The notes below the pieces were generated by a model. That model did no database searches, was not told the origin of the DNA, and was given only the letters and a program-made list of their open reading frames with translations. Shown here one piece after another: positions 31,169 to 49,411 of a stretch of DNA of 64,000 nucleotides (positions within the stretch are counted from its first letter, which is position 1; every line of letters begins with the position of its first letter). Made by a program: the position numbers and the translations under genes. The DNA is from an uncultured Burkholderiales bacterium (GTDB lineage: Bacteria; Pseudomonadota; Gammaproteobacteria; Burkholderiales; Burkholderiaceae_C). The stretch spans positions 1 through 64,000 of the forward strand of contig CAMFGY010000004.1 of NCBI GenBank assembly GCA_945952065.1, read 5' to 3'.

Positions 31169-33907
31169 ATGACCTTGCTTGCCGCTCCGCAACTCAGCCG
31201 CCATCTGGTTGACAACCCCAATCTCACCGCCTGGCTGGAAGAGTGCGCCGAGGTGTCCTTGGTCCTGGCCATTGCGCCGGCAGGTTTTGGCAAGACCACC
31301 GCCCTCTTGAGCCTGCATGAGCGCCTGCGCGACAAGGGCTTTGCCACCGCCTGGATTCAGCTCAGCGCGGATGACAACCACGTCGAGCGCCTGTGTGCGC
31401 TGCTCGACACCGCGTTGGCCGTGGACGTCAATGCGCCCACCAGCCAGCCCTTGCCCAATTTGATGGACGCGCGCTACACCGGCTCGCGCCTGGGCCAGGA
31501 TGTGCTGGATGCGGTGGCCGCCTTGCAGCAGCCCACCGCCATTTTTCTGGACGACTTTGACCACCTGCGCGAGGCCCGCGCGGTGGATCTGATGCAGCGG
31601 CTGATCGAACGTCTGCCGCCGCAGTGCAAGCTCTTCATCAGTGCGCGCAGCGCACCGCTGCTGCGGCTTTACAAGCTCAAAGCGCAGGGACGCTTGCTGC
31701 AAATCGGCATGGCCGAGCTGAGCTTCGATCTGGAGCAGGCCGAGCTGTTTTTGAACCAACGCCACCAGTTGCAGCTTGACGCCGCCAGCGTGCGCCGCCT
31801 GCTGCACGCCACCGAAGGCTGGCCGGCAGGCTTGCAACTGGCCGCCCTGGCCTTGAAGGCCCGCGGCGACAAGCGGGGTTTTATTGAAAACTTCTGCGAG
31901 CAGACCGCCGACATTGGCCGCTACCTCTATGAAGAGGTGTTCTGGGACCAAGCCGAAGAGATCAAAACCTTTTTGCTGCAGACCAGCTTCATCCAGCAAC
32001 TCGGGCCGGGCATCTGCAATGCGGTGTGCCAAATCAGCAATGCGGCCACGCTTTTGCGGCAGCTGGAGCAGCAAGGCCTGTTTGTGCTGCGCATGGGCGC
32101 GGCCGGCACCGAGTTCCGCTACCACCCGCTGTTTGCCGAGTTCTTGCTGCGCAAGCTGGGCGAAGACCACCCCCACTGGTTGCCCGAGCTGCATCAACGC
32201 GCTGCCGATTGGTTCTTGCAAGCCGGCGACCCCGGCGCTGCGGTGGACCATGCGCTGGCCGCCGGCAACCATGAGCAAGCCTGCGCCATCTTGGTGGGCC
32301 ATGTCTGGCAAGCGCTGGCGCGCGGCCACATCAGCACCTGCCGCCACTGGCTGGCGCAGATTCCGCCAGCGGTGCAAGCGCGCCACCCGGAGTTGCTGGT
32401 GGCGCTGAGTTGGGCGCACATCTTCCGTTACGAATATGCCAAGGCCAGCGAACTGGCCGAGCAACTCAAGCATGAGCCCGCGGTGCAAGCCATGGCCGAG
32501 TACCGGCTGCTCAGCCCCTTGTCCCTGGTCCTGATGGACAGACTCAGCGAGTGCGAAGCGGCGCTGCAGCACCAGGAGCTGACCGCTGTCGGCGGCTTGA
32601 GTGAAGCCACCTTCCGCTCGATCAGCGCCTATGTGGATCTGTGCTCCCACCGCTTTGACGCCGCGCTGGAGAACGCCGACCGCTCGCTGCAATTGTTCAA
32701 GCGCATGGGCAGCGTCTACGGCACCACCTTCAGCCACGGCATCAGCACCTACGCCTTGCTGGCCCAGGGCCGCGCTTTGCAGGTGATTGCCCGGCTGGAG
32801 CCGGCCCTGGCCGAGCTGAGCCGGGTCAGCGGCCGCCACAGCGCCAGCAGCGCCTATGTGGGCGTCTATCTGGCCGGAGCCCTCTATGAGGTGGGCGAGT
32901 TCGAGCGCGCCGCCAGCCTGGCGCGCGAGTACCTGGACTTGTCGGCCGAGCTGGTGTTTTTGGATGCCATCGTCATCGCGCACCGAATTTTGTCGCGCAC
33001 CCTGTGTCGGGCCGGGCAGTACGCCGAGGCCGCCGCGCTGATCCATGCAGGCACCGAGTTGGGCCGTTCGCTGGGGCTGACGCGCATCGTGGCCCCCATG
33101 CGGCTGGAGCAGCAGTACCAAGTGGTGCACCAGTTCGACCACGGTCACCCACTGGCCCCGGAGCGCCTGAGCCTGCTGCCAGCCGCCTGGGACTTTGCCG
33201 CTGACCGCATGACGCCGATCAACGACGTGGAGGACCAAGCCCTGGCAGGCCTGCGCCTGGGCCTGCGCGATGGCCGGGCCGAAGAGGTGCTGGCCGCCTG
33301 CCAGAGCAAACGGGCCAAGGCGCAAAAGCTGGGCCGCCGTCGCCGCCAGCTCAAGCTGGGCTTGTTGCAGGCCCAGGCCCTGGCCTGTTTGCAGCGCGAG
33401 CCCGAGGCCTTGCAGCTTTTGGCGGACCTGGTTTTGGCCGAGGGTGAGCTGGCCTTGCGCGCCACCTATCTGGAAGAGGGCCCGCAACTGCTGGCCTTGC
33501 TGATGCGGCTGCGCGAACAAGGCCACAGCAGCCCGGCTCAGACGGCGCGGCTGAGGGCCTTGCTGAATCTGGTGCTGGCCATGGAGACCCTGCCCGCTGC
33601 GGCCTTGAGCGGCACCACGCCTGATGCCCAGGCGCAGACCCAGTCGCCCTCGCCCGCCACAGAAGGGGCCGCCAGCGCCCCCGAGACCGCCACCACGCCC
33701 CCGGCGATGGACTGCGGCCTGTCGCCGCGTGAGCTGCAGATCTTGCAATGCCTGTCGGCCGGCATGCCCAACAAGCTGATCGCCAACAGCCTGCACATCT
33801 CCGAGCCCACGGTGAAGTTCCATTTGCGCAACATCAACCACAAGCTGGACGCCCGCAACCGCACCCATGCGGTCTTCATCGCCCGCGAGCGCGGCTGGGT
33901 CAGCTGA
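31169..33907 (+). CDS. MalT-like LuxR-family ATP-dependent transcriptional regulator (LAL type)
   Basis: A 912-residue STAND ATPase regulator. Walker A is LAIAPAGFGKTTAL (about residues 33-46), Walker B-like is AIFLDDFDHL, and RLPPQCKLFISAR is the sensor region. Then comes a long helical/TPR-like sensor arm (about 340-780), a low-complexity Ala/Pro/Thr linker (about 805-845), and a C-terminal LuxR HTH (LSPRELQILQCLSAGMPNKLIANSLHISEPTVKFHLRNINHKL). Such proteins activate transcription when bound to ATP and an inducer, as MalT does with maltotriose. It lies upstream of a lipoprotein and an AraC gene that share a promoter design, which it could control. Ligand unknown. Confidence 0.92.
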   Translation: MTLLAAPQLSRHLVDNPNLTAWLEECAEVSLVLAIAPAGFGKTTALLSLHERLRDKGFATAWIQLSADDNHVERLCALLDTALAVDVNAPTSQPLPNLMDARYTGSRLGQDVLDAVAALQQPTAIFLDDFDHLREARAVDLMQRLIERLPPQCKLFISARSAPLLRLYKLKAQGRLLQIGMAELSFDLEQAELFLNQRHQLQLDAASVRRLLHATEGWPAGLQLAALALKARGDKRGFIENFCEQTADIGRYLYEEVFWDQAEEIKTFLLQTSFIQQLGPGICNAVCQISNAATLLRQLEQQGLFVLRMGAAGTEFRYHPLFAEFLLRKLGEDHPHWLPELHQRAADWFLQAGDPGAAVDHALAAGNHEQACAILVGHVWQALARGHISTCRHWLAQIPPAVQARHPELLVALSWAHIFRYEYAKASELAEQLKHEPAVQAMAEYRLLSPLSLVLMDRLSECEAALQHQELTAVGGLSEATFRSISAYVDLCSHRFDAALENADRSLQLFKRMGSVYGTTFSHGISTYALLAQGRALQVIARLEPALAELSRVSGRHSASSAYVGVYLAGALYEVGEFERAASLAREYLDLSAELVFLDAIVIAHRILSRTLCRAGQYAEAAALIHAGTELGRSLGLTRIVAPMRLEQQYQVVHQFDHGHPLAPERLSLLPAAWDFAADRMTPINDVEDQALAGLRLGLRDGRAEEVLAACQSKRAKAQKLGRRRRQLKLGLLQAQALACLQREPEALQLLADLVLAEGELALRATYLEEGPQLLALLMRLREQGHSSPAQTARLRALLNLVLAMETLPAAALSGTTPDAQAQTQSPSPATEGAASAPETATTPPAMDCGLSPRELQILQCLSAGMPNKLIANSLHISEPTVKFHLRNINHKLDARNRTHAVFIARERGWVS

Positions 33908-34929: not shown

Positions 34930-36006
34930 ATGTCCAGCGCCAGCCCTCTCGCCACCAGTACCGCCGCAAGCCCTGCCCCGAGCAGCACGCACCGCAACGA
35001 CACCCCCAAATCCAAGGCTCGTGCGGCGACCAGCTTGGTGTCGAGCTGGCACAACGCCATGGCCCAGGCCATGGCCACGCGCGGCCTGTGCTTGCAAAGC
35101 CTGCTGGAGCAACTGGGCCTGGACGAGAGCGAGCCCGACCCCCGCGTGCTGTCAGACGCCTACAGCAGCGCCTGGGAGTTGGCCGCCGCCCGCACCGGCG
35201 ACGCCGCCATCGGCCTGAGCGTGCCGGCCCATCCGCTGGTGGCCTTGGGCCTGCTGGCGCACTTGGTGCTGTCGGCGCGAGACCTGGGCGACGCGCTGCA
35301 CTACATCTTGCGCTTCTCGGCCCTGCTCTCGCCCGCGGTTTGCATGGAACTGCAACACCAGGGCGAGCAATGCCTGCTGCGGGTAGAAATTCTCAAAGGC
35401 CTGCAAGCGCCGCCGATGCAGCGCTATGACTTCATCGCCAATGTGCTGCTGCAGTCATTGAACTGGGCCACCAATGTGAGGGTGCGTCCGCTGCATGTGG
35501 ACTACCCCTTTGCCGCGCCTGCCAATATGGACCCCTGGCTCAAGGCCTTCGGCTGCGAGCTGCGTTTTGGCGCCGACAGCTTCTGCATCGCCTTCGCGAG
35601 CGCCGATCTGGCCACCCCCATCCCCACCGCCAACGCCAGCGTGGCCACCTTGTGCGAGCGCAGCGCGCAGCAAGCCATGGTGCAACGCGGCGGCAGCATC
35701 CAGGTGCGGGTACGGCAACTGCTGACCCAAGAGCTGCCCAAGGGCGACCCCAAGCGCGAGGCCATTGCCGCCATGCTGAATATGAGCGAGCGCACCTTGC
35801 AGCGCCGCTTGCTGGAAGAAAGCACCAGCTTCAACAAACTGCTGGATGAAACGCGCCGCGAGCTGGCCGCCAGCTATTTGAAGCGCGGCAGCATCTCGCC
35901 CACCGAGATGAGCTTTGCGCTGGGCTTTGCCGACCCGAGCAATTTCTACCGCGCCTGCAAACGCTGGTTCGGTCACTCACCCAGCCGCCTGCGCAGCCTG
36001 GCCTGA
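34930..36006 (+). CDS. AraC-family transcriptional regulator with arabinose-binding-type N-terminal domain
   Basis: A 358-residue regulator. A low-complexity start (about 1-35) leads to a PF12625-type ligand domain (about 40-245: GLCLQSLLEQLGLDESEPDPRVLSDAYSSAWELAAARTGDAAIGLSV). The C-terminal AraC double HTH (about 255-358) has MLNMSERTLQRRLLEESTSFNKLLDETRRELAASYL and MSFALGFADPSNFYRACKRWFGHSP. This architecture is shared with OruR-like regulators of catabolic or virulence genes. It lies directly upstream of the Fil-like cluster and is separated from it by a terminator-like hairpin. It may control that cluster or the lipoprotein. Inducer unknown. Confidence 0.92.
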   Translation: MSSASPLATSTAASPAPSSTHRNDTPKSKARAATSLVSSWHNAMAQAMATRGLCLQSLLEQLGLDESEPDPRVLSDAYSSAWELAAARTGDAAIGLSVPAHPLVALGLLAHLVLSARDLGDALHYILRFSALLSPAVCMELQHQGEQCLLRVEILKGLQAPPMQRYDFIANVLLQSLNWATNVRVRPLHVDYPFAAPANMDPWLKAFGCELRFGADSFCIAFASADLATPIPTANASVATLCERSAQQAMVQRGGSIQVRVRQLLTQELPKGDPKREAIAAMLNMSERTLQRRLLEESTSFNKLLDETRRELAASYLKRGSISPTEMSFALGFADPSNFYRACKRWFGHSPSRLRSLA

Positions 36007-36364: not shown

Positions 36365-36973
36365 ATGAAAGCATTCAAGTTGTCCGCCGTCGCCGCCCTG
36401 CTGGCTGCTGCTTCCCTGTCGGCTTCGGCCATGACCGCCATCGACGACAGCGCCCTGTCGCAAGTCAGCGGCCAGGACGGTGTGTCCATCGCTGGTGACC
36501 TGAACATCAACATCGGCTCCTTCAAGTACACCGACACCGACGCACAAGGCGGCTCGGTCTCGTTCAACAACATCGGTGTGAAGGGCATGTTCGTGATGAC
36601 CATCGACATCATGAAGGGTGTCGCTGCTGCTGACATCGCCGACTCCGCCAAGCTGCTGACCGCAGCCAACACCAGCGGCAACATCGTCAACACCATCGGT
36701 AAGTCCATGCAAGCGCACCTGGGCGAAACCGGCGCCATCGCCCCCACCTCGGCCACCGCAGGCGAGTTGGTGAAGCTGGTCACTGGCGGCATCTACGCCG
36801 GCGGCGATGTGGTTCAGTTCGCCTTCCCCAACGCCGGCCTGGACGCCAAGCTGGCGCCTAGCGTCTCGGTCGCTGGCATCACCATGGGCAATAGCAACGG
36901 CGCTTCCTTCGGTGCTGTTGAGATCAACAACATCAATCTGCAAGGCTCGAAGTTCTGGGTCTGGGCTCACTGA
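36365..36973 (+). CDS. Exported DUF6160/FilA-like subunit 1 (probable major subunit)
   Basis: A 202-residue exported protein. The signal peptide [22 protein letters not shown] is followed almost at once by the family motif [17 protein letters not shown] (residues 26-42). The rest is beta-rich, with alternating N/G/V stretches and no charged helices, and ends [11 protein letters not shown]. The next gene shares the motif, the middle block [21 protein letters not shown] and the C-terminus, so they are paralogs. It has a strong ribosome site and its own strong terminator, suggesting higher expression than the downstream genes. By analogy to FilA and to amyloid subunits it may be a surface fibre or outer-membrane-associated protein. 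Family call moderate, function inference. Confidence 0.8.
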
Positions 36974-37010
36974 TCGGCCCGATCTGATCTGAACGCTGCG
37001 TGAGCAGCCC

Positions 37011-37043
37011 TCGGCCCGGCGCCTTCTGCCGGGCCGATTTTTT
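37011..37043 (+). terminator. Strong terminator inside the cluster, after subunit 1
   Basis: TCGGCCCGGC (37011-37020) and GCCGGGCCGA (37028-37037) pair over 10 bp around a 7-base loop and are followed by six T. It lies between subunit genes 1 and 2. Read-through would give lower expression of the later genes. Confidence 0.92.
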
Positions 37044-37084
37044 CTCAGACCCTCTGTTCCCCTCTGGTTTTCCCACCCCTCGCC

Positions 37085-37633
37085 ATGAACCGGCTGCATT
37101 TGCTGCTCATCGCCCTGTTCTTCGTCTTGCCCGCCTTGCTCCTGCAGGCCGGCGCGGCGCGAGCCATGAGTGCGATGGACGACGCCGATCTGGCTGAGGT
37201 GCACGGGCAAGACGGCGTCACCTTGGCCGCCGACCTGGACATCAAAGTGGGCGCTTTTGTCTACAGCACCAAAAGCGCCAGCAACCCAGAAGGCGGCTCC
37301 ATCGCCTTCAACAACATCAGCTTGCGCGGCCTGTTTGTGATGACGGTGGACATCTTGAACGCCTCTGCCTTCAGCAGCGCCCTGGGCAATGCCATGGCGG
37401 CCTACGGGGCCGATGGCGCCGCGGGCATCAGCCGCTTGCTGGCCTCGGGCGCTTATGACGGGCGCAGCGATGTGATTCAGTTCGCCGTGCCGAACGCCGG
37501 CCTGGACCACCGACTCAGCCCCAGCCTGAGCATTGGCGCCATCACCCTGGGCAATAGCAGTGCCTCCATGGGCAGCCTGGCCATCAGCAATATCGACCTG
37601 CAAGGTTCCAAGATTTGGATGTGGGCGCACTGA
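37085..37633 (+). CDS. Exported DUF6160/FilA-like subunit 2
   Basis: A 182-residue paralog of the preceding protein. Signal MNRLHLLLIALFFVLPALLLQAGAARA, then MDDADLAEVHGQDGVTLAADLDI (motif Gly-Gln at residues 41-42), GGSIAFNNISLRGLFVMTVDIL, and the C-terminal block VIQFAVPNAGLD ... LQGSKIWMWAH, closely matching subunit 1. The stop codon overlaps the next start (TGATG), so translation is coupled. Location is predicted to be periplasmic, outer-membrane or surface. Confidence 0.8.
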   Translation: MNRLHLLLIALFFVLPALLLQAGAARAMSAMDDADLAEVHGQDGVTLAADLDIKVGAFVYSTKSASNPEGGSIAFNNISLRGLFVMTVDILNASAFSSALGNAMAAYGADGAAGISRLLASGAYDGRSDVIQFAVPNAGLDHRLSPSLSIGAITLGNSSASMGSLAISNIDLQGSKIWMWAH

Positions 37634-38481
37634 TGATGAAACAGCTGAAAGCCGCAGTGATGCAGGCCCTGGGCTTGTGCGCCTTGCTGCTCGCCCCGGC
37701 GGCGCAAGCGCAATTGCGCGTGCTGCCCGATGCTGAACTGGCTGGCGTCTGGGGCCAGGCCATGGTGTCCATCAGCAACAGCAGCTTGAATGGCTTGGAC
37801 TTCTCGCGCTTCACGCTCAATGCCGATCTGTCCTTGAGCGCCAATTTCTCCAAGCTGCGCCTGGGCGAAACCACGCACGCGCCGCGCAATGGCAGCGGCG
37901 CAGACATCGACCTGAACCTCTTGCAATTTGGCCGCAGTGATCTGGGCAGCGCACACCGCACCGTGGCCTTGAGCAAGCCGTTTTTTGAATTGGTCTACCG
38001 CAATGTCGGCGACGCCAACAGCCGCGAAATCATCGGCATGCGCCTGGGCTTTGAAGGCGTCAGCGGTGCCTTGGGACTGAGCGCCAACACCATCAGCGGC
38101 TCGCTCGCCATCAGCGATGGCGCGGGCCAAACGCTGGACTCCCGCAACGACCCCTTGGGCGGCAAACGCTGGGACGGCACGACTTGCGGCGCCAGCGCTT
38201 GCCCCTTTTCCTTGGCGCAGATCGGCGCGCTGCGCGCGGGCGACAGCAGCGGCCCGAGCCGGGACTTTTTCCTCTCGGTCTTGAAGCAATCAGTGCAGTT
38301 CCCGGCGGCGGTGGCCGGCATGCCGGCGCCGGATCTGGCCCAAGCCGGCCTGTGGCTGAACTGGCGCGACAAGCTCAGCGCCACCCAGCTCGGCGGCGTG
38401 GTACCGCCGAATCTGCCACCGAATCTGGCAAGCACGCTGCCGGCCCTGCCCGCCGGCCTGCTCAAACCGGGTGGAGGCTGA
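37633..38481 (+). CDS. Exported GQ-motif protein 3 of the cluster
   Basis: A 282-residue exported protein. The start ATG 37633 overlaps the previous stop. Signal MMKQLKAAVMQALGLCALLLAPAAQAQ leads to LRVLPDAELAGVWGQAMVSI, the same DxELxxVxGQ motif (Gly-Gln at residues 41-42) but without the following DG. The mature part is beta-rich (ISNSSLNGLDFSRFTLNADLSLSANFSKLRLG). It has one Cys pair (TTCGASACPF) and a Pro-rich C-terminus (VVPPNLPPNLASTLPALPAGLL). No known domain beyond the shared N-terminus. Possibly a minor subunit. Confidence 0.72.
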   Translation: MMKQLKAAVMQALGLCALLLAPAAQAQLRVLPDAELAGVWGQAMVSISNSSLNGLDFSRFTLNADLSLSANFSKLRLGETTHAPRNGSGADIDLNLLQFGRSDLGSAHRTVALSKPFFELVYRNVGDANSREIIGMRLGFEGVSGALGLSANTISGSLAISDGAGQTLDSRNDPLGGKRWDGTTCGASACPFSLAQIGALRAGDSSGPSRDFFLSVLKQSVQFPAAVAGMPAPDLAQAGLWLNWRDKLSATQLGGVVPPNLPPNLASTLPALPAGLLKPGGG

Positions 38482-38483
38482 GC

Positions 38484-39449
38484 ATGGGCCAGCCACGGTT
38501 CCAAGCGCATGCAGCGCGGTCGACAAAAAACAGCAAGGGCGCTCGCGCCCTTTTGGTGTTTTTGGCCTGGCTGGTGGCGGCATCGAGTGGGCTGCAAGCT
38601 GCCTGGGGCCTGACCCCCATTTCTGACGAAGAACTGGCCCATGTGCAAGGGCGCGACGGCTTTGCCTTCAATCTGCGCGGCTTTGCGCTGCAAGGGCCGC
38701 TGAGCCTGCGCCTGGGCAGCGCCGAGGGTTCGGGCCTGAGCCTGTCCAACTTCGCGCTCTCGCGCAGCGATGACCTGGCTGCGACCTTCTCCGACCCCTA
38801 TGTGCTGAGCCTGCAAAAAGGCCCGGCCGGCATGCCCGACCGCATCAGCCTGAGCGAGCCGCTGAATGCCTTGAGCCGCCTGAGCTGGCAGTTTGCGGCC
38901 GACTTGAGTTTGATCGACAAGAGCCCCAGCGCAGCCACGGACACGTTCAAGGCCGGCGCCTTGCTGATCCAAGACCTGCGCAGCTTCGGCGGCACACTCA
39001 GCCTCGCGCCCAATGCCGACCCGGCCGAACAAGGCATTGCCTTCGGCCTGGGCCTGCGTCTGGATGTGGGGGCCCTGTTGCTGCGCCCGCGTGGACGCGC
39101 TGACACGACCCTGTTCGACAGCCCCGCCGCGCCCGAGCAGTTCAGCCTGCGCGGCCTGCATCTGGCCGCCGCCACACCCGAGGGCAGCTTGAGCAATCAG
39201 CCCTGGCGCTTGGCCGATCTGGACCGCCAGCGCCTCTTGCTCAACACCGTCACCGCGCCCGAGGGTGGCAGCTTTTTGCATCTGAACCTGGCCTGGCCCA
39301 GCGCCGGCACAAGCGCTGCCGCAGGCAGCTTGCTGATCGACAACATCAGCTTCAAAAGCGATCTGGGCCCCAGCCTGGACCTGGGCAGCAGCCGCATCGG
39401 CAGCATGCAAATCCAGTACCTGGATGTGCGCGTGAAGACGGGGCCCTGA
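38484..39449 (+). CDS. Exported GQ/GR-motif protein 4 of the cluster
   Basis: A 321-residue exported protein; ATG 38484 sits three bases after the previous stop and follows GGAGG. A long basic n-region precedes the signal core ALLVFLAWLVAASSGLQAAWG. Then comes TPISDEELAHVQGRDGFAFNL, the cluster motif with Arg instead of Gln (G56, R57). The mature domain is beta-rich with repeated hydrophobic/Ser-Leu-Gly segments (LSLRLGSAEGSGLSLSNFALS). It ends in GSMQIQYLDVRVKTGP. No recognised domain. Presumed minor component. Confidence 0.72.
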   Translation: MGQPRFQAHAARSTKNSKGARALLVFLAWLVAASSGLQAAWGLTPISDEELAHVQGRDGFAFNLRGFALQGPLSLRLGSAEGSGLSLSNFALSRSDDLAATFSDPYVLSLQKGPAGMPDRISLSEPLNALSRLSWQFAADLSLIDKSPSAATDTFKAGALLIQDLRSFGGTLSLAPNADPAEQGIAFGLGLRLDVGALLLRPRGRADTTLFDSPAAPEQFSLRGLHLAAATPEGSLSNQPWRLADLDRQRLLLNTVTAPEGGSFLHLNLAWPSAGTSAAAGSLLIDNISFKSDLGPSLDLGSSRIGSMQIQYLDVRVKTGP

Positions 39450-39454
39450 ACGCC

Positions 39455-39952
39455 ATGAGAACTTGCCTGCGCGCCTTCTTCATGTCCATCTGCATACCCC
39501 TCAGCGTGAGCCTCGGGTTGATGCTCTCGAGCGGCACCGCCCTGGCCGGCCCCAGCCTGAAAGCGCCGCTGTCGGACGAAGAGTTGGGCGGCATCAGCGG
39601 CCAGGCCGGCATTGTGTTGAACGCACATCTGGAACTGAGCACCGGCCTGGGCGCCGAGAACCGCATCAGCCTGGGCTTCAAGGTCGGCGCCAACACCAGC
39701 TATTTGTTGCTGGACAAGCTCAGCGGCACCCTGGATCTGCTGGGCTTGAGCTTGCGCGCCGTGGCTGGGCCGGCCGAGGTGGGCGATGTGATCGAGCTGA
39801 CATTGCCGAGCTTTCTCGGCTTCAAGGACTTTGGCGTCAAGGCCATCGGCGTGCAGGCCGACCCGCTGGCGCCACTCAGCAACAGCCTCGGTCAGATTCA
39901 GCTCAATGGCTCGCTGCAGATGCAGGGTCAGGTCTTGCTTTGGTCCAGGTGA
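39455..39952 (+). CDS. Exported GQ-motif protein 5 of the cluster
   Basis: A 165-residue exported protein six bases after gene 4. Signal MRTCLRAFFMSICIPLSVSLGLMLSSGTALA, then PLSDEELGGISGQAGIVLNAHLEL. The segment LSDEELGGISGQ (residues 39-50) matches the consensus LSxxELxxIxGG of double-glycine leaders at every defined position except the last. The remaining 115 residues are beta-rich. The gene is the last of the five and directly precedes the C39 peptidase gene. Function inferred from context only. Confidence 0.75.
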   Translation: MRTCLRAFFMSICIPLSVSLGLMLSSGTALAGPSLKAPLSDEELGGISGQAGIVLNAHLELSTGLGAENRISLGFKVGANTSYLLLDKLSGTLDLLGLSLRAVAGPAEVGDVIELTLPSFLGFKDFGVKAIGVQADPLAPLSNSLGQIQLNGSLQMQGQVLLWSR

Positions 39953-40014
39953 TGGTTTGAGTTATCGCGAGCAGCAGTCAAGAAGAAAGCAGTCGGCAGT
40001 ATGGAGACCTGGAC

Positions 40015-40779
40015 ATGTGGATGATTTTTCTCGGCGCCTTGGCGGCCTGGATCGGCGGCGCCACGGTGGAGACGCAATACCCCATCCAGGACATGCCCGA
40101 GCAGCAGTTCGAGCTGCCCATGGCCCAGGTCGGCGGCGGGGTGTCGCCCTGGTCGGTGCGCATCGAGCCGCTCTCCGAGATCAAGTTCCGCAACATCGTG
40201 CGCCAGGCCTATGACTACAGCTGCGGCTCGGCCGCGCTGGTAACAGTCATCAACAACTATCTGGGCATCAAGGTCAATGAGCAGCAGGCCATGGAAGGCA
40301 TGCTGGCCTTTGGCGAGCGCGACAAGATCATTGCCCGACGCGGCTTCTCGCTGTTGGACATGAAGCGCTACGTGGTCAGCCTGGGCGCCGACGGCGCGGG
40401 TTTTCGCGCCAGCATGAAAGACCTGGCCGAGCTGACGCAGCCGGCCATCGTGCCCATCGACTACGCCGGCTTCAAACACTTTGTGGTGTTTCGCGGCATC
40501 CGCAATGGCCGCGTCTTTCTGGCCGACCCGGCCATCGGCCACATCGTTTTTGCGGTCCATGAGTTTGAAGAACTCTGGGACCGCAACACTCTGTTCCTGC
40601 TGACGCCCGGCAAGGGACAGCCCGCCCCCCTTTCCCTGCTGGCCCTGGGCGACGAAGAATTGGGCGTCATTGATGACGACCTGGTGCGCCGCCAAGCCAG
40701 TCTCCTCCCCCTGGACACCACCGAAGCCTTGCGCAACGCGGTCCAAGCCAAGTTTGGCATTTTCAATCTCCGCCGCTGA
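40015..40779 (+). CDS. C39-family cysteine peptidase (FilB/FapD-like)
   Basis: A 254-residue protein with an N-terminal hydrophobic segment (MWMIFLGALAAWIGGATVETQ, signal or anchor) and a C39 peptidase domain without ABC-transporter parts. The catalytic set is visible: oxyanion Gln in VRQAYDYSCGSAAL (Q64), nucleophile C70, His in GFKHFVVFRG (H155), Asp in FLADPAIGH (D171). Stand-alone exported C39 peptidases are known in the Fap amyloid operon (FapD) and the Fil operon. It follows five exported proteins whose N-termini carry a double-glycine-like motif, the type of site C39 peptidases cut. Its own C-terminal part has ALGDEELGVID (residues 210-220), resembling that motif. Start ATG 40015; its stop overlaps the next start (TGATG). 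Confidence 0.88.
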   Translation: MWMIFLGALAAWIGGATVETQYPIQDMPEQQFELPMAQVGGGVSPWSVRIEPLSEIKFRNIVRQAYDYSCGSAALVTVINNYLGIKVNEQQAMEGMLAFGERDKIIARRGFSLLDMKRYVVSLGADGAGFRASMKDLAELTQPAIVPIDYAGFKHFVVFRGIRNGRVFLADPAIGHIVFAVHEFEELWDRNTLFLLTPGKGQPAPLSLLALGDEELGVIDDDLVRRQASLLPLDTTEALRNAVQAKFGIFNLRR

Positions 40780-41816
40780 TGATCATGAACGCTCTCTCTC
40801 CCCGTTTTTCCTCTCGCTCCACCGCCGCACTGGCCTTGTTTCTGAGCCTTGCCGCAGGCCAAGCCCAGGCCCAAACCAGCAACAGCCCCGACTCCAGCAA
40901 GCAAGCCGCTCGCGATGCACTCGCCAAGCAAGAAGGCGATGTGGACCAGACCGCCCTGCTGAAAGCCGCGCTGACCGCACAAGACAAGCAGTACTCACTG
41001 ATCCGCAAAGGCAAGACCTCGCTGACCTATGACTTCAGCTACGCCTATGTGGGCGCCCAGCAGATCGACGCCAAGTTCGACGACAGCCGCCTGACGCTGT
41101 TCAGCATCCAAAACACCCGCGCCCACACCGTCACCAACACCGTCTCGGCCGACTACGGCGTTTTGGACAACCTCACCGCCAATGTCTCACTGCCCTTGGT
41201 CAGCAAGTTTTCCGAGTCCGACAAATTCTCCGGCAATGTGCACGGTTTTGGTGACATCGGCCTGGGCCTGCGCTGGCAGCCCATGGCCATGAGCCGCGAT
41301 CTGCCCTCGCTGACCACCTCGGCCAGCCTGCGCGTGCCCAGCGGCCGCAGCCCCTTCAAGGTGGTGGCCGGCCAGGGCCTGAGCACCGGCGCCGGCTACA
41401 CCGCCTTGAGTCTGGGCGCCAACACCTCCAAGGTGATGGACCCGGTGGCGCTGTTCGGCTCGGTCTCGCTGACCTTGGGGGTGCCGGTCCGGCATTTGAG
41501 CCAACAGCTGAATGGCGCCACGCTGACCGGCGTGGACCCCGGCAGCAGCATTGGTTTCGGCATGGGCTTTGCCTACGCGCTGTCGTACAAGGTCTCGACC
41601 ACCGTGTCCTTCCAGGAAACGATCTCGGCCAAGACCAAGCTGCATCTGGCCGACGGCAGCACCAGCATGACCGCCCCGCAGACCTCAGGCCAGCTGAGCT
41701 TTGGTCTGGGTGTGCGCGCCTCGCCGCAAACCACGGTGAATGTCTCGGTGGGCGTGGGCCTGGGCCCGGATTCGCCGGCCTTCACCCTGGGCTTCAATCT
41801 GCCCCTGAACTTCTGA
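40779..41816 (+). CDS. Outer-membrane beta-barrel protein (FilC/FapF-like, transporter family)
   Basis: A 345-residue exported protein. Signal MNALSPRFSSRSTAALALFLSLAAGQAQAQ (start ATG 40779 or 40785). Then a helical, possibly coiled stretch (SSKQAARDALAKQEGDVDQTALLKAALTAQDKQYSLIRKG) precedes alternating strands (SLTYDFSYAYVGAQQIDAKF, FGDIGLGLRWQPM, GAGYTALSLGAN) ending FTLGFNLPLNF with terminal Phe. A helical N-terminus before a barrel of about 270 residues is the FapF plan, where the barrel exports amyloid subunits and the helix gates it. Sequence style also fits the PF13557-like phenol-degradation outer-membrane family. Export role is inference. Confidence 0.8.
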   Translation: MIMNALSPRFSSRSTAALALFLSLAAGQAQAQTSNSPDSSKQAARDALAKQEGDVDQTALLKAALTAQDKQYSLIRKGKTSLTYDFSYAYVGAQQIDAKFDDSRLTLFSIQNTRAHTVTNTVSADYGVLDNLTANVSLPLVSKFSESDKFSGNVHGFGDIGLGLRWQPMAMSRDLPSLTTSASLRVPSGRSPFKVVAGQGLSTGAGYTALSLGANTSKVMDPVALFGSVSLTLGVPVRHLSQQLNGATLTGVDPGSSIGFGMGFAYALSYKVSTTVSFQETISAKTKLHLADGSTSMTAPQTSGQLSFGLGVRASPQTTVNVSVGVGLGPDSPAFTLGFNLPLNF

Positions 41817-41826
41817 GGCCTGGCTC

Positions 41827-43458
41827 ATGCGCAGTATTGCAAGGGGCCGCCGCTGGCCCGCAGGCGGTGGGCTGGCCTTGGCCGGCGCCGCCTTGCTGGC
41901 GGCGGCACCAAACGCCCAAGCCGCACTGACCGACAACCTGGGCGCCAGCGTGGTGGCCATGTCCATGGGCAATGCGGTGGTGGCCGACCCGCCGGGACTG
42001 GACGCCATCCACTTCAACCCCGCCGGGCTGGCCCGACTGAAGGCGAACCGCCGCCAGGACGCGGTGTTTGGCGCCTCCATCAAACCCTATGCGAGCTTCT
42101 CGCAACCGGCCGACTTTGACATCGGCGGCTGGAAGGAAGACCCGCTGAACGGCACGCACACCGGCGACAAGGTCAATGCTTCACTGTTCTTGCCGCTCTA
42201 CGGGCCGATCAAGCGGCCCTTGCCCTCGGCCCTGGGCGCGGGCCTGGGGCTGGCCTTTCACTCGCCCGGCTCCAAATGGACCTTTGCCACCGCGTCCTAT
42301 GTGCCCATGGCCGTGGGCATTGACCGCACCGAAGACCCGAACGACCCGGCCCGCTTTGACGGCAAAAAAATCGTCATCCAGCGCCTGGTCTATCTCTCGC
42401 CCACGGCGGCCTATCAGTACAGCGACACGCTGCGCTTCGGCATCGGCGTGCCGATTGCCCACCAGGGCTTTGCCCTCAACACCGATATGCGCATGCCCAA
42501 CCAGCTGCTGGGCATCATCGGCAAGCTGCAAGACGCTTGGTGCGGCGAGCAGGGCAACCCGCTGGACACCCTGGCGTTCGGCCTGTGCGGCGGCGGCAAA
42601 GAGGGGCGGCTGCGGCCCTTCAACAAAGCCGGCAATATGGACTTTGAGCTGACCGCACCGATGGACCCCACGCTCAATCTGGGCGTGCTGTGGGAACCCA
42701 AGGACTGGTTTGCGCTCGGCGCCAGCTACCAGTTCGGCAGCAAAACAGCCATGACCGGGCGCTTCAGCTTCCAGGCCGACCCCATGCTGCGCAAGTTTGT
42801 CGACGGCATGTATGCCAGCTTGCAAGGGCCGATTGTGGCCGCCACCTTCGGCATGCCCACCTCCATCCCGGCGGTGCAAAGCGGCAACGTGACCCTGGTG
42901 CTGCCCTTCCCCGAACATGCGCAGGTGGGCATCAAGCTGAAGCCGCTGTCCTTCCTGCAGTTCAATGTGGACGCCAACTGGACCAACTGGAAGCGCTGGG
43001 ACAAGATGACCTTCCAGTTTGACCAACAGGTCTCGCTGCTGCAGATGGCGCGGCTGTTTGGCCAAGCCGATGCCAGCAAGCTGGTGATTCCGCGCGGCTA
43101 CCAAAGCCCACTGCACTTTGGCTACGGCATGGACTTGAGCATTGGCCAAAGCCTGCATCTGCGCGCAGGCTATGAGCCGCGCAAGAGTTCGGTGCCGCGC
43201 TCGGCCATGGACCTGATCGCGCCCATGCCCGACCTCACCGTCAAAAGCATAGGCATCGGCTACACCACCAAAAGCGGCACCCGCTTCGATGCCACCGCCA
43301 GCTATGCGCATGGCAAGTTCGACCTGCCCGCCAACACCAGCTGCAATCTGAACTGCAACAACTTCTTCAACGTCATCTACAACCCCTATGCGGGTTTGGA
43401 CATCAATGGCGGTATCCGGATTCGCTACGCGGGCATTTCCATGTCGCATGAGTTCTGA
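41827..43458 (+). CDS. OmpP1/FadL-family outer-membrane protein
   Basis: A 543-residue barrel. A basic n-region and signal (GGGLALAGAALLAAAPNAQA) lead to LTDNLGASVVAMSMGNAVVADPPGLDAIHFNPAGLARL, the NPAG signature of OmpP1/FadL proteins. Strand-rich segments run to a terminal Phe (AGISMSHEF). FadL proteins carry hydrophobic molecules across the outer membrane. In the Fil operon a FadL-type barrel also accompanies the C39 peptidase, so this one probably belongs to the system. It lies ten bases after the previous gene. Two Cys pairs (WCGEQGN...GLCGGG and SCNLNCNN) may form loop disulfides. Confidence 0.88.
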   Translation: MRSIARGRRWPAGGGLALAGAALLAAAPNAQAALTDNLGASVVAMSMGNAVVADPPGLDAIHFNPAGLARLKANRRQDAVFGASIKPYASFSQPADFDIGGWKEDPLNGTHTGDKVNASLFLPLYGPIKRPLPSALGAGLGLAFHSPGSKWTFATASYVPMAVGIDRTEDPNDPARFDGKKIVIQRLVYLSPTAAYQYSDTLRFGIGVPIAHQGFALNTDMRMPNQLLGIIGKLQDAWCGEQGNPLDTLAFGLCGGGKEGRLRPFNKAGNMDFELTAPMDPTLNLGVLWEPKDWFALGASYQFGSKTAMTGRFSFQADPMLRKFVDGMYASLQGPIVAATFGMPTSIPAVQSGNVTLVLPFPEHAQVGIKLKPLSFLQFNVDANWTNWKRWDKMTFQFDQQVSLLQMARLFGQADASKLVIPRGYQSPLHFGYGMDLSIGQSLHLRAGYEPRKSSVPRSAMDLIAPMPDLTVKSIGIGYTTKSGTRFDATASYAHGKFDLPANTSCNLNCNNFFNVIYNPYAGLDINGGIRIRYAGISMSHEF

Positions 43459-43507
43459 CACTTTCTCCTTGCCTTCTTTCTCTCCCCATTGCTAACGCCC
43501 CATTCCC

Positions 43508-44083
43508 ATGAAGTCTTCCGTTTCTTTGATGACCCTGTGCGGCGCCCTGCTGCTGAGCGCCCCGCTGAGCTCGCAAGCCCAAAACACACCCGCCGCCAAG
43601 CCCACTGCCAGCGCGGACTCACGCCAAGCCCTGGTCGACAAACTATTGAGCCTGTGGCGGGTGGAAGATGTGGCGGTGGTGATGGTGCAACGCCCGGCGG
43701 CCAGCGCCATGGAACAGGCCCGCATTGCGCTGCAAGGCCGGGTCAGCCAGGAAAAGCGTGACCGCACACTCAAAGACATCAGCAGCGATGTGCAGACCTA
43801 TGTGGACGAGGCCACCCCAATTGCCCGCGACAGCGCCCAGCGCCTGGTGCGCCCGACGCTCAGCCCGCTCTTGCTGGCGCAGTTCAGCGATGAGGAGCTG
43901 CGGCAAATCATTGCCCTGCTGGAGTCGCCAGTGAAAAAGAAGTTCGAGAAACTGGTGCCCGACTTGGAACGTGCCTTGGGCGAAAAAGTGGCCGAGGACA
44001 GCGGCGCCGCCATCAACCCCAAGCTGCAAACCATGACCCAGGCCGTGGGCCTGAAGCTGCGTGCCGCCTCGATTGCGCCCTGA
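43508..44083 (+). CDS. Exported DUF2059-like helical protein
   Basis: A 191-residue periplasmic protein. Signal MKSSVSLMTLCGALLLSAPLSSQA, then an all-helical domain: ALVDKLLSLWRVEDVAVVMVQRP ... LLLAQFSDEELRQIIALLESPVKKKFEKLVPDLE. The phrase FSDEELRQIIALLESPVGKK is characteristic of DUF2059. Its SDEEL is part of that helix and not the export motif of the upstream genes. It is the last gene of the cluster, 49 bases after the FadL gene. It may be a periplasmic chaperone-like accessory, but this is inference. Confidence 0.82.
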   Translation: MKSSVSLMTLCGALLLSAPLSSQAQNTPAAKPTASADSRQALVDKLLSLWRVEDVAVVMVQRPAASAMEQARIALQGRVSQEKRDRTLKDISSDVQTYVDEATPIARDSAQRLVRPTLSPLLLAQFSDEELRQIIALLESPVKKKFEKLVPDLERALGEKVAEDSGAAINPKLQTMTQAVGLKLRAASIAP

Positions 44084-45102: not shown

Positions 45103-45879
45103 TCAGCCTTTGCCAAAAACCTTAGGCAAAGCACTCTCAATTGAGCCTTCGATCAACTCATTGATCACCTCGATCTTGCGCTGCGCACTGATCGAGTCCC
45201 ACACGTGGCTGCCCTTGCCCTCGCGGTCGGAGGCAGAGAAGGGCTTTGACCCTTCAATATTGCGGCCAGCGAGCGCTTCACCGGTCTTCAGGTCAATCAA
45301 GGTCAAGCGCAGATAGGTGTAAGCCGACATCAAGCCAATGGCCGAGTTGCCAGTCGTGGTGTTGATGATTTTTTGATAGGGGTCCACGTAATAGCCCAAG
45401 CCCTCCAGCCGCCCTTCACCCACTTCCCCGTTCAACAGTTTGAGCTTGGCGTCGGTGGTCCGGCGCGTCACCAGCAACAGATGCGTGATGCCGTCTTTGG
45501 CGAACACATCCATGAACATTTGAGGCAGCTTGAGCTTGCCTTCGGGCATCAGCTGGTCAATCGGTTTGACCAAAGCAGGGTCAGGGTTGGCGTACAAAGA
45601 GATGCCGCTTTGAGGCTGCAGCTGTTTGAGGCCATCTTGCACGGCCTGGAATGCCGCTCCATCAAACTGCCGCCCCGCCACCGGCACCGCTTGCTTGGCA
45701 TTGCGCTGGATATTGCTCCCTGTACTGGGTTCAAACACCACGACATTGAGCTGGTCGCCCAACAATGAGATCACGGCGTAATGCGGCAACTGCTCTGCTG
45801 CATAAGCCGCGCCCCCCCACCCTGACAAGCCGCAGGCCAATAGGGATGCCAAACAATTGCGACGGCCTTTCTGAGTCAT
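45103..45879 (-). CDS. Exported protein of unknown family, paralog of the 49503-50315 gene
   Basis: A 258-residue exported protein. ATG 45879 follows GGAGAAGGAA and gives a signal MTQKGRRNCLASLLACGLSGWGGAAYA. Mature blocks: YAVISLLGDQLNVVVFEPSTGSNI, HLLLVTRRTTDAKLKLLNGEVGEGRLEGLGYYVD, AYTYLRLTLIDLKTGEAL, and a C-terminal helix (AQRKIEVINELIEGSIESALPKV). The same blocks in the same order appear in the protein at 49503-50315. Neither matches a family I recognise. Probably periplasmic or outer-membrane-associated. Divergent from the gene at 46248. Confidence 0.78.
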   Translation of the reverse strand: MTQKGRRNCLASLLACGLSGWGGAAYAAEQLPHYAVISLLGDQLNVVVFEPSTGSNIQRNAKQAVPVAGRQFDGAAFQAVQDGLKQLQPQSGISLYANPDPALVKPIDQLMPEGKLKLPQMFMDVFAKDGITHLLLVTRRTTDAKLKLLNGEVGEGRLEGLGYYVDPYQKIINTTTGNSAIGLMSAYTYLRLTLIDLKTGEALAGRNIEGSKPFSASDREGKGSHVWDSISAQRKIEVINELIEGSIESALPKVFGKG

Positions 45880-46247
45880 TTTCCTTCTCCCTTGACGTAA
45901 TAGACGTTCACCAAAAATTTCCAAAACACCGGCGGCGCAAAGCACGACCAGCCCCAAGCTCAGGTCCTTGCAGACCGTTGTTCTGATGGCTTGAGGCTTG
46001 ATCGATGGATGGTTCATGCGCTCCATCATTCACCTGAATGCACGTGACGAATGAGCCGGCAGCGATCGGCCCATCACCTTCACGGCACAGCCCCACGCTG
46101 CGCGATTTTGTGTGTCAATGCAGCCAAGGTCGAGCCGGGTTTGCCACCACACGAAAGGGTTATTGACAAACAATCAAAGCTGCAAACGCGTTGCGTGGAT
46201 TCTCCGTAACGCTATGCTTGCGCACACCCCTCCACTTTGTGCCCACG
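45880..46247. other. Divergent intergenic region
   Basis: About 370 bases between the exported paralog (minus) and the small exported protein (plus). A TTGACA is present at 46163-46168, but no matching -10 lies 16-18 bases downstream. Nothing else is recognised. Confidence 0.4.
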
Positions 46248-47317: not shown

Positions 47318-49411
47318 ATGAACCTGAACGTCCATGCTCAGTCAATTTTGCTGAGCACCCTGATCGCATCTTGTGCCGCACTCGTGACTGCTTGCGGTGG
47401 TGGTGGCAGCAGTGAAGTTCCGGCTCCGGCTCCCGCCCCTGCGCCCGCGCCAGCCCCCACCACGGTCAGCGGCACAGCGGCCACAGGGGCGGCCATCCAG
47501 GGACAGGTGGTGGCCATTGATGTGAACGGCAAGATGTCGCCCCCGGCCTCCACCAATGCCTCCACGGGCTCTTACACCGTCGATGTGGCCGGCCTGACGG
47601 CGCCCTACATCCTCACCATCACCGGCAGTTCCGGCGGCCGACAGGTGTCGCTGGCTTCGGTGGCCACCGCTCCGGGCCAGACGGTCAATCTGACACCGCT
47701 GACCGATCTGATCGTCTCATCGGCAGCCGGAGTGCCCGCGGGCGCCGCCTTGGTGGAGTCCTGCACGCCCTCTGGCGGCGCGGTGGCCGCCGCTTGTCTG
47801 AGCGCGCTGAAAGCCGCCACTTCCGGCAGCAAGTTGAAAGACGCCGCCCAGCAAGTGGCAGCCATGGTGGCGCCCCTGAACCCTGGCGGCACGGATCCGC
47901 TCAACGGCAGCTTCAAGGCCGACGGCACCGGGCTCGATGCCGCGCTCGATCGCCTGCTGGTGCGTTCTGACGCCACCGGCCAAGCCACCATCACCCTGGT
48001 CGCCACACAAGCCGTGATTGGCCAAGTGGCGGCCGGCGGCGCCTTGACCGTAACGCCCCCGACCAGCGGACAAGTGCAGTCCGCCGACGCAGTGGCCAAG
48101 GTGTTGCCCGAAATTCGCGCATGCATGGCTTCGCTGTCGGCGCTGTATCCCAGCACGGGCTTCCAAGCACCCAAGCCCGAGCAGATTTCGCCCTTTATTG
48201 ACGAAAACTTCTCAGCCTGGAATTTGAAAAAGGCTGAAATCGTGAAGTTCTTTTCCAGCGGCTCGGCCCCGGCCACAGCCGGCTTCAGCCTCAAGCCCCT
48301 GAGTTTGGCCAAGTACAACCTGGAGCCGCTGAACGACAGCGAAATCGCCGTACTCACCGACCCGAACGTCAGCAACAAGGTCAAGACCATCTTGAGCGCT
48401 CGGGCCCAGGGCGGCGCGCCGGTTCAGTTGGATGGCAGCGGCAACCCAGTGGCCGCTTGGGTCCGACTGGAAATCACCGATGCCGACAACCAGCTCTTCA
48501 CCAAGGGCGCCGCCTACGCAGGCTGCCCAGGCGGATGGCGCTGGGCCGGCCACAAGCATCTGGACATGCACATGGCCGCACGCGTGACCCGCGATGAAAG
48601 CAATGGCGAACTCGAGCGCACACGCGCCTTCCACATTGAGCGCCAAGAGATTGCCGACGCGGTGGCCGCCGGTATGCCCGATGTCGACACGGTGGACGTG
48701 CGCGGCCCCGGCATCGTGGGCTACAGCGGCAAGGCCGATGCGCCCGTGGGCGAGAGCAACAAGCTCACCCTGGTTCGTTCGCCCAACAGCTTTGTCAGCT
48801 GGCTGGTTGTGGGCGGCGCTGGCGCGGAGTTCTATAAAGAGTCCGAGGCCCTGCTCAGCTGCAAGGACTTGGCGCAGCGCGCACCCAACACGCCAGCCGG
48901 CGTGCCTTGCATCGACGAAAGCCAGGTCGTGCCCAGCAGCACCTACATCTGGGCGCTCAAGCAAGTGGGCACGGGCAAGGTCGTCAAGGCCTTCCCGCAT
49001 GAGGTTGGTGCAGTCCCCTTGTCCAAAGCCTTTGTTCAGGCCAATGCCGACCAACTGTTTGCCAAGATCTCGTCAATCACGCCGGCCTCGATCACGGCCA
49101 TCAATGCAGCCATTTCAGCGGCAAGCAGCCAATCGCTGGAAGATGTGTTCAGCCTGAGCTACACCCTCGGGTCGGCCTACGGCGCGACCGTGGACCATTG
49201 CGGCCTGAATCTGCGCGATGCCAAGAGCAGTGTGCTGCTGAATGCAGAGGTCAATGCGGTGGGTCAGGCCACCAAGTGCAGCTTCACGAGCAGCAAGCTC
49301 AATTCGGGTTCCCTGGCCAAGCCCAGCGCGGCGGTTGGCATGGGTGACGCCCGTGTCGTCACCCAGGTGCTGGGCAATCAAATGGTGACCCGACGCAACC
49401 TGCCGCAGTGA
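47318..49411 (+). CDS. Large lipoprotein of unknown function
   Basis: A 697-residue lipoprotein. Signal MNLNVHAQSILLSTLIASCAALVTAC ends in the lipobox LVTAC, followed by GGGGSSE and a Pro-Ala linker (PAPAPAPAPAPAP), typical of surface-tethered lipoproteins. Residues about 50-130 resemble a carboxypeptidase-regulatory-like beta domain (SGTAATGAAIQGQVVAIDVNGK...GSYTVDVAGL). The middle is a long Ala/Ser-rich helical part. The C-terminal half contains several Cys (CTPSGGAVAAAC, YAGCPGGW, LLSCKDLAQR...VPCIDE) that could form disulfides. No catalytic motif seen. It is convergent with the exported paralog at 49503. Confidence 0.8.
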   Translation: MNLNVHAQSILLSTLIASCAALVTACGGGGSSEVPAPAPAPAPAPAPTTVSGTAATGAAIQGQVVAIDVNGKMSPPASTNASTGSYTVDVAGLTAPYILTITGSSGGRQVSLASVATAPGQTVNLTPLTDLIVSSAAGVPAGAALVESCTPSGGAVAAACLSALKAATSGSKLKDAAQQVAAMVAPLNPGGTDPLNGSFKADGTGLDAALDRLLVRSDATGQATITLVATQAVIGQVAAGGALTVTPPTSGQVQSADAVAKVLPEIRACMASLSALYPSTGFQAPKPEQISPFIDENFSAWNLKKAEIVKFFSSGSAPATAGFSLKPLSLAKYNLEPLNDSEIAVLTDPNVSNKVKTILSARAQGGAPVQLDGSGNPVAAWVRLEITDADNQLFTKGAAYAGCPGGWRWAGHKHLDMHMAARVTRDESNGELERTRAFHIERQEIADAVAAGMPDVDTVDVRGPGIVGYSGKADAPVGESNKLTLVRSPNSFVSWLVVGGAGAEFYKESEALLSCKDLAQRAPNTPAGVPCIDESQVVPSSTYIWALKQVGTGKVVKAFPHEVGAVPLSKAFVQANADQLFAKISSITPASITAINAAISAASSQSLEDVFSLSYTLGSAYGATVDHCGLNLRDAKSSVLLNAEVNAVGQATKCSFTSSKLNSGSLAKPSAAVGMGDARVVTQVLGNQMVTRRNLPQ

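Follow-up and report, generated by a model that had tools for sequence, protein, structure and literature searches.

The closest described relatives of the locus reported here, a nine-gene cluster for exported proteins and their putative secretion machinery, are the Fil system of Acinetobacter and the Fap amyloid system of Pseudomonas. The cluster lies in a 64,000-nucleotide stretch of an uncultured Burkholderiales genome (contig CAMFGY010000004.1 of assembly GCA_945952065.1, positions 1 to 64,000; hereafter the window). In the accessible parts of two reports, FilA is named as a pilus subunit (PMC11784438), and the lipoprotein FilF requires type II secretion for its release (PMC12802150). For Fap, the accessible part of the report places FapD in the periplasm, finds its cysteine to be required for FapC secretion, and leaves its target unclear, the Fap proteins being without canonical C39 sequences (PMC5557850). 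Complete N-terminal processing is described there in FapE alone and not in FapA to FapD, and Rouse and colleagues propose FapE, or FapF, as the FapD target; the FapE motifs to which they draw attention in that part are GG and GA, and not the leader found here (PMC5557850). The C39 leader rule, as given for ComA and LahT in a review of leader proteases, comprises hydrophobic residues at -12, -7, and -4 and a cut after GG, GA, or GS (PMC10885120).

The cluster comprises nine intact open reading frames (ORFs), all on the + strand between 36365 and 44083, in a genome close to Roseateles (Table 1). An earlier interpretation made from the letters and their ORFs (the sequence-only reading) had placed nine one-strand genes here, and re-calling returned all of them as intact ORFs; its description of overlaps and very short gaps holds for most junctions but not for g1/g2 (111 bp), g5/C39 (62 bp), and FadL/DUF2059 (49 bp). 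ATG codons at 37633 and 38484 were taken as the starts of g3 and g4 in preference to longer TTG frames. The products of g1 to g5 are predicted to be Sec-exported, and all five carry a double-glycine-type C39 leader directly behind the signal peptide, with the consensus [LIM] at -12, L at -7, [VI] at -4, G at -2, and [QR] at -1 (Q, Q, Q, R, and Q in g1 to g5). These leaders thus have the hydrophobic positions and the glycine of the C39 rule and depart from its strict form, in which -1 is G, A, or S. Also common in the leaders here are E at -8 and S at -11, two residues known from bacteriocin leaders. As read from the sequence, a leader common to five exported proteins behind their signal peptides is new here: a literature search, with most subscription journals outside its scope, found no published description of a leader of the g1 to g5 type.

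The one outstanding structural relative of g1 is chain A of 9XFV (51% identity in the Foldseek alignment), an entry released in 2026 under the title 'Pilus-like-alpha, a bacteria pilus-like structure obtained from a Karst cave', with 25 chains named 'bacteria pilus (like)'; the same literature search found no paper on it. By sequence, g1 matches the chain with E 6.1e-44 over residues 38-202, through the native C terminus, and g2 matches it with 44% identity (BLAST); homology of both proteins spans the whole deposited chain. Residue 1 of 9XFV corresponds to D38 of g1, the first residue past VSGQ and thus +1 of the leader, and it aligns to D43 of g2. BLAST matched 70 locus proteins to the chain, 67 of which align from residue 1 (the window pair and near-copies included), and the dipeptide preceding the aligned start is GQ in 55, GR in 11, and AQ in 1. 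The closest protein among the fetched loci, from an uncultured Roseateles (L061), is 86% identical to 9XFV. A surface fibre was among the products that the sequence-only reading had considered, and this solved pilus-like filament favours it. We regard g1 as very probably a filament subunit and as probably the major pilus subunit, and the cluster as the probable biosynthetic operon for the filament of the environmental sample.

The other exported proteins are more diverse. The sequence-only reading had described five paralogous or motif-sharing proteins; the shared motif stands, in that all five have the leader, but paralogy does not extend beyond g1 and g2 (42% identity over 188 amino acids), the sole full-length pair, and g3 to g5 are not clear paralogues. 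The best pairwise match outside this pair is that of g4 and g5 (BLAST E 0.006). The description of all five as beta-rich was examined for g1 and g4 only. The g4 model (predicted local distance difference test, pLDDT, 86) is all-beta: a short helix covers the leader at residues 48-53, and 18 strands follow. The g1 model, of modest confidence (pLDDT 66), has the same short helix, at 28-32, and two long strands. Foldseek returned no match for the g4 model at E<=0.001, and sequence searches of solved structures found no relative for g4 and none for g5 (best E 0.057). Best-BLAST counterparts of g3 and g5 are present in 38 and 32 loci, respectively, the window included in both counts. We infer that g2 to g5 are lesser subunits.

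For comparison, 138 loci around C39 genes were fetched in addition to the window and, after L053 was dropped (its C39 gene was not called), the 138 loci with a recognised C39 gene were divided into 92 Fil-type loci (FilB, FilC, and FilD present; the window is one of them) and 46 other loci. The named loci, taken as the 80 best among the matches listed, lean to close relatives. The FapD-type matches numbered 48, of which 32 stretches were fetched and most others had been fetched earlier; G621, G438:C18, and G582 were omitted. At least two pairs of loci are the same contig twice (L038/L062 and L047/L123), and leader counts are of de-duplicated proteins, whereas counts of the 92 Fil-type loci are not de-duplicated. 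L068, L071, L110, and L132, which have a Fil-type C39 gene and an uncalled FilC or FilD, were kept among the 46 others. We used our own scripts to call genes and signal peptides (20 loci were re-called with the codon usage of the window), and only proteins with a predicted signal peptide were counted. In the 46 other loci, genes were picked by position alone; near the C39 gene, positions +2 and +3 and the opposite strand also hold exported genes, which were placed in no group. Besides a tight leader pattern, we used a looser one (the published positions, with F added to the published residue set and G, A, S, Q, R, or K at -1) and a strict one (-1 limited to G, A, or S); Fisher tests were run for the tight and looser patterns.

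The leader recurs at particular positions around the peptidase. Among the 46 other loci, the exported gene at +1 (the FapE position) fits the tight pattern in 31/40 cases, the looser in 28/40, and the strict in 14/40; for short exported genes at -1, the values are 17/24 (one of these 17 carriers is from L132), 9/24, and 6/24. Control exported proteins at least four genes away fit in 5/511 cases (tight; 11.7 expected from shuffles), 53/511 (looser; 61 expected), and 37/511 (strict). Long -1 proteins (the FapC position) have a tight leader in one of 17 cases, and proteins encoded two or three genes before C39 in 4/57. A leader at the FapE position and almost never at the FapC position fits the published processing of FapE alone (PMC5557850, accessible part). 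The FapE of L172, where the C39 gene scores above the FapD cut-off, reads LKDAEMAELRGR and then YVMPGR. L185, L198, L200, and similar loci form a second Fap-like type, with a short leader-bearing protein on each side of C39 and a divergent FapF-type barrel. DUF6160-like proteins of Fil-type loci fit the tight pattern in 154/174 cases, the looser in 153/174, and the strict in 21/174; because the models used to gather this set span the leader region, it is a weaker test than the Fap-like set. Internal controls in the Fil-type loci gave 0/36 (DUF2059-like proteins) and 4/95 (other near neighbours).

The remaining genes bear out the relation to Fil and Fap that the sequence-only reading had proposed. 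Pfam finds DUF6160 in g1 and g2 above the cut-off and the C39 domain in the peptidase; the Fil and Fap profiles match the peptidase and the first barrel significantly, at scores below the curated cut-offs (Table 1). With a profile built from 12 sequences related to FilC, the FapF crystal structure 5O65 was matched at 1.7e-34. The FilB profile matches solved leader-cutting C39 domains, namely 4RY2 (5e-9) and 6MPZ (4e-8), which we take to be PCAT1 and LahT, and ComA (0.004). Gln64, Cys70, His155, and Asp171, the oxyanion Gln and the catalytic Cys, His, and Asp of the C39 family, are invariant across the loci, in all 136 distinct C39 proteins with that of the window counted, and 138 of 140 C39 proteins have an N-terminal hydrophobic stretch.

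Taken as a whole, the cluster is likely best explained as a system of the Fil/Fap kind for pilus-type secretion and assembly. In the proposed mechanism, Sec would carry the five leader-bearing subunits into the periplasm, where FilB would bind the leader helix through the hydrophobic residues at -12, -7, and -4 and the glycine at -2 and cut after G-[QR], much as C39 domains of bacteriocin transporters take off double-glycine leaders on the cytosolic side. With its N terminus freed, each subunit would be ready for export through FilC and for polymerisation, with g1 as the major subunit of a 9XFV-like filament, its close paralogue g2 beside it, g3 to g5 as putative minor, tip, or anchor subunits, and FilD and the DUF2059-like protein as candidate accessory factors. 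Removal of the leader at G-[QR] is quite likely, FilB is likely to be the protease, and FilC, with slightly less assurance, is probably the exporter.

Several points, besides the way in which the Fil set was collected, weigh against this reading. Of the 163 Fil leaders found, 141 have Q or R as P1, versus the GG, GA, or GS described for C39 enzymes; either the S1 site is different or cleavage comes about in another way. The g1 to g5 type of leader matched no curated leader family, and the tight pattern was fixed after the data had been viewed. Neither the tight nor the looser pattern fits 11/174 Fil proteins, all 11 of which have A rather than G at -2, or 4/40 of the +1 genes (L050, L186, L188, and L202). 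The start of 9XFV could be an order boundary, if the deposited sequence was cut back to its ordered part. No DUF6160-like gene was seen near filB in 28/92 Fil-type loci, one genome (G405, 90% complete) has DUF6160 without FilC, and g3 to g5 may not be filament subunits at all.

Some of these points would also suit a leader that FilB leaves uncut and that serves as a tag for docking on, or targeting to, FilB or FilC, the start of 9XFV then reflecting order or another protease. Q or R at P1, in place of G, A, or S, fits such a tag, and certain C39-like domains function without cutting (PMC5557850 and PMC5135000, accessible parts). The invariant catalytic residues and the exact start of 9XFV at +1 argue for cleavage instead, as does the requirement of the FapD active-site cysteine for secretion (PMC5557850, accessible part), and we consider the uncut tag unlikely, if the best placed of the alternatives to removal of the leader by FilB and assembly of a pilus.

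Table 1. Predicted features of the window: the cluster, its leaders, and its flanking regulators.
Feature	Position	Strand	Description	Evidence
MalT-type LuxR regulator	31169-33907	+	probable regulator of the locus	NCBIfam MalT 1.2e-82, below cut-off
AraC-family regulator	34930-36006	+	probable regulator of the locus	NCBIfam QhpR 4.9e-56, below cut-off
g1	36365-36973	+	FilA-like DUF6160 protein, probable major pilus subunit	Pfam DUF6160 2.8e-23; 9XFV match
g1 leader	36440-36475	+	predicted cut before D38 (Q37-D38)	read from sequence
terminator-like hairpin between g1 and g2	37011-37037	+	11 pairs, T6	z -4.1
g2	37085-37633	+	second FilA-like subunit	Pfam DUF6160 4.2e-17; 9XFV 5.4e-36; 42% to g1
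g2 leader	37175-37210	+	MDDADLAEVHGQ	read from sequence; 9XFV residue 1 aligns to D43
g3	37633-38481	+	exported, leader-bearing, candidate minor subunit	DUF6160 6.4e-5, below cut-off
g3 leader	37723-37758	+	LPDAELAGVWGQ	read from sequence
g4	38484-39449	+	exported all-beta, leader-bearing, candidate minor subunit	DUF6160 0.0085, below cut-off; structure model
g4 leader	38619-38654	+	ISDEELAHVQGR	read from sequence
g5	39455-39952	+	exported, leader-bearing, candidate minor subunit	DUF6160 0.0065, below cut-off
g5 leader	39569-39604	+	LSDEELGGISGQ	read from sequence
FilB-like C39 peptidase	40015-40779	+	N-terminal hydrophobic segment; Q64, C70, H155, D171	Pfam C39 9.2e-18; NCBIfam FilB 1e-73 (248 bits, cut-off 475), FapD 6.9e-37 (below equivalog cut-off)
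FilC-like outer-membrane barrel	40779-41816	+	FapF family	NCBIfam FilC 2.6e-82 (277 bits, cut-off 630), FapF 2.1e-17 (below equivalog cut-off)
FilD-like barrel	41827-43458	+	FadL-type	Pfam Toluene_X 3.3e-38; NCBIfam FilD 1.4e-124 (416 bits, cut-off 970)
DUF2059-like exported protein	43508-44083	+	candidate periplasmic helper	Pfam DUF2059 20 bits vs cut-off 23.6

The 111-bp gap between g1 and g2 holds a strong terminator-like hairpin, which, judged from its sequence, would favour g1 output over that of the remaining genes and would make g1 the most abundant product. A hairpin with a T-run was found within 130 nt downstream of 7/47 g1-type genes, and the element is thus kept in few relatives.

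Among the matches listed from named genomes, the nearest FilB relatives are 77% identical (an uncultured Roseateles) and 75% identical (R. koreensis). The R. koreensis locus L062 has the order LuxR, AraC, six DUF6160-like genes, FilB, FilC, FilD, and a DUF2059-like gene. FilB, FilC, and FilD are adjacent in 91 of the 92 Fil-type loci, and a DUF2059-like relative is present in 37; relatives of the MalT-type LuxR and the AraC regulators are no more than 11 genes away from filB in 34 and 33 loci, respectively. In two loci, the gene after FilD has a MalM-like region (L041:7050-8063, Pfam 2e-11; L044:11655-12806, NCBIfam 7e-6, below cut-off), and together with the MalT-type regulators flanking several Fil loci, these MalM-like genes are oddly reminiscent of the maltose operon. 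Over a range of 11 genes from filB, DUF6160-like genes number zero in 28 loci, one in 26, three in 1, four in 8, five in 13, six in 15, and eight in 1. The sequence-only reading had called five substrates an unusual expansion, a view that does not survive this comparison: 37/92 loci carry at least four such genes, and five is normal for Roseateles, Duganella, Massilia, and their kin. Five is many only beside the single gene of the Pseudomonas loci and of the Acinetobacter locus.

The system is rare (5/150 genomes sampled from the family of the window, its own included). Across a 398-genome sample of the phylum, again with its own genome, FilC (E up to 1e-40) is present in 9 genomes and DUF6160 in 10, with 9 shared; the chance of such sharing is 1.6e-17 by genomes and 1.7e-9 by genera, relatedness being otherwise ignored. 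DUF6160 genes are often far from filB, as are all seven matches in G464 and the single one in G430, so FilB, if it serves them, would act in trans.

Downstream of the cluster, the - strand of the window encodes two exported proteins (45103-46029 and 49503-50315) that are distant paralogues of each other (25% identity over 246 amino acids, E 1e-27), the first of which has no NCBIfam match at E<=0.1. Between them, 47318-49411 encodes a 697-amino-acid lipoprotein-like product with CGGGGSS after the signal, for which neither Pfam nor NCBIfam gave a match at E<=0.1. Elsewhere, small opposite-strand proteins with a leader-like stretch (MSDDELSEVHAAG and LDDQDLKQVHGAG) are encoded beyond a lipoprotein-like gene (L037:15586-16002 and L064:10599-11048, both on the - strand); the lipoprotein-like gene in L037 encodes a DUF4382 protein.

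A second alternative is that the cluster handles hydrophobic compounds such as alkanes, fatty acids, or wax esters, with a lipid-binding beta coat and two hydrophobe-conducting barrels in place of a pilus. The FadL type of FilD and weak lipid-binding-fold matches for g4 are consistent with this, as is a Fil locus (L037:12472-17643) that adjoins a wax ester synthase/DGAT gene and a fatty acyl-CoA reductase-like gene. Relatives among the matches listed include Marinobacter, Acinetobacter, Thalassolituus, and Oleiphilaceae, several of which are oil degraders. FapF barrels are also similar to COG4313 uptake channels (PMC6173800, accessible part). Set against the relation of g1 to a solved pilus-like filament, this alternative seems a little less likely still than the uncut tag. 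The weakest is a strict amyloid system, with subunits stacked as cross-beta fibrils like FapC and with C39 and barrel as Fap machinery: FilB and FilC are homologous to FapD and FapF and the leader is also on FapE-position proteins, but g1 to g5 match no Fap subunit family, FapB and FapC included, in Pfam or NCBIfam at E<=1 (no search was aimed at amyloid repeats), g4 is predicted to be compact and all-beta, and 9XFV was deposited as pilus-like, which makes this distinctly improbable.

The assembly of a pilus by Fil/Fap-type machinery may be one case of a broader route, towards which we lean with more reserve: Sec export with a second, double-glycine-type leader, removal of that leader by a stand-alone periplasmic C39 peptidase, and export through a FapF-family barrel. 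Such a route would serve true pili (Fil and 9XFV) and, via FapE-type proteins, Fap amyloids, including distantly encoded subunits, in a manner that can be likened to exosortase/PEP-CTERM. The leader points to a likely substrate signal for a family of periplasmic proteases that is little understood, and its motif can be used to find further subunits. Because FilA-type and FapE-position proteins have the leader in common, the question of the target of FapD, a protease essential to Fap amyloid secretion, becomes directly testable with short peptides; this target is described as unclear in the accessible part of PMC5557850.

By its predicted parts list, the window cluster is neither a Fap amyloid system nor the curated Acinetobacter Fil system. 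It shares with Acinetobacter Fil (NCBIfam FilA to FilF) the order A-B-C-D, homologous FilB, FilC, and FilD, and a FilA with the leader and the DUF6160 region. It differs in having five leader-bearing subunits where Acinetobacter has one, and a DUF2059-like protein where FilE and FilF stand, for which no match was found among the nine genes or, at E<=0.1, among seven neighbouring genes (the lipoprotein-like gene at 47318-49411 included). The Acinetobacter locus L131 passes the curated Fil cut-offs, whereas all window scores fall below them, FilA among them (35 bits for g1 and 30 for g2, cut-off 220). Pseudomonas Fap (FapA to FapF) has a homologous C39 peptidase and FapF barrel and FapE-position proteins with the same kind of leader; its +1 leaders have R at -3 (35/36), G, R, or K at -1, and mostly F or Y at +1, whereas Fil leaders mostly have S, T, or R at -3, Q or R at -1, and D at +1. 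Both g1 and g2 are homologous to 9XFV, with the same start and the C-terminal WAH end; 9XFV itself was deposited from an environmental sample. The PCAT/AMS transporters (ComA, LahT, and PCAT1) share the C39 family and the leader register (hydrophobic -12, -7, and -4, G at -2), but the leader of the window proteins stands behind a Sec signal peptide, has Q or R at P1, and faces a stand-alone peptidase with its own hydrophobic N terminus. As in LahT, one protease would serve several precursors that share a leader and have diverse bodies.

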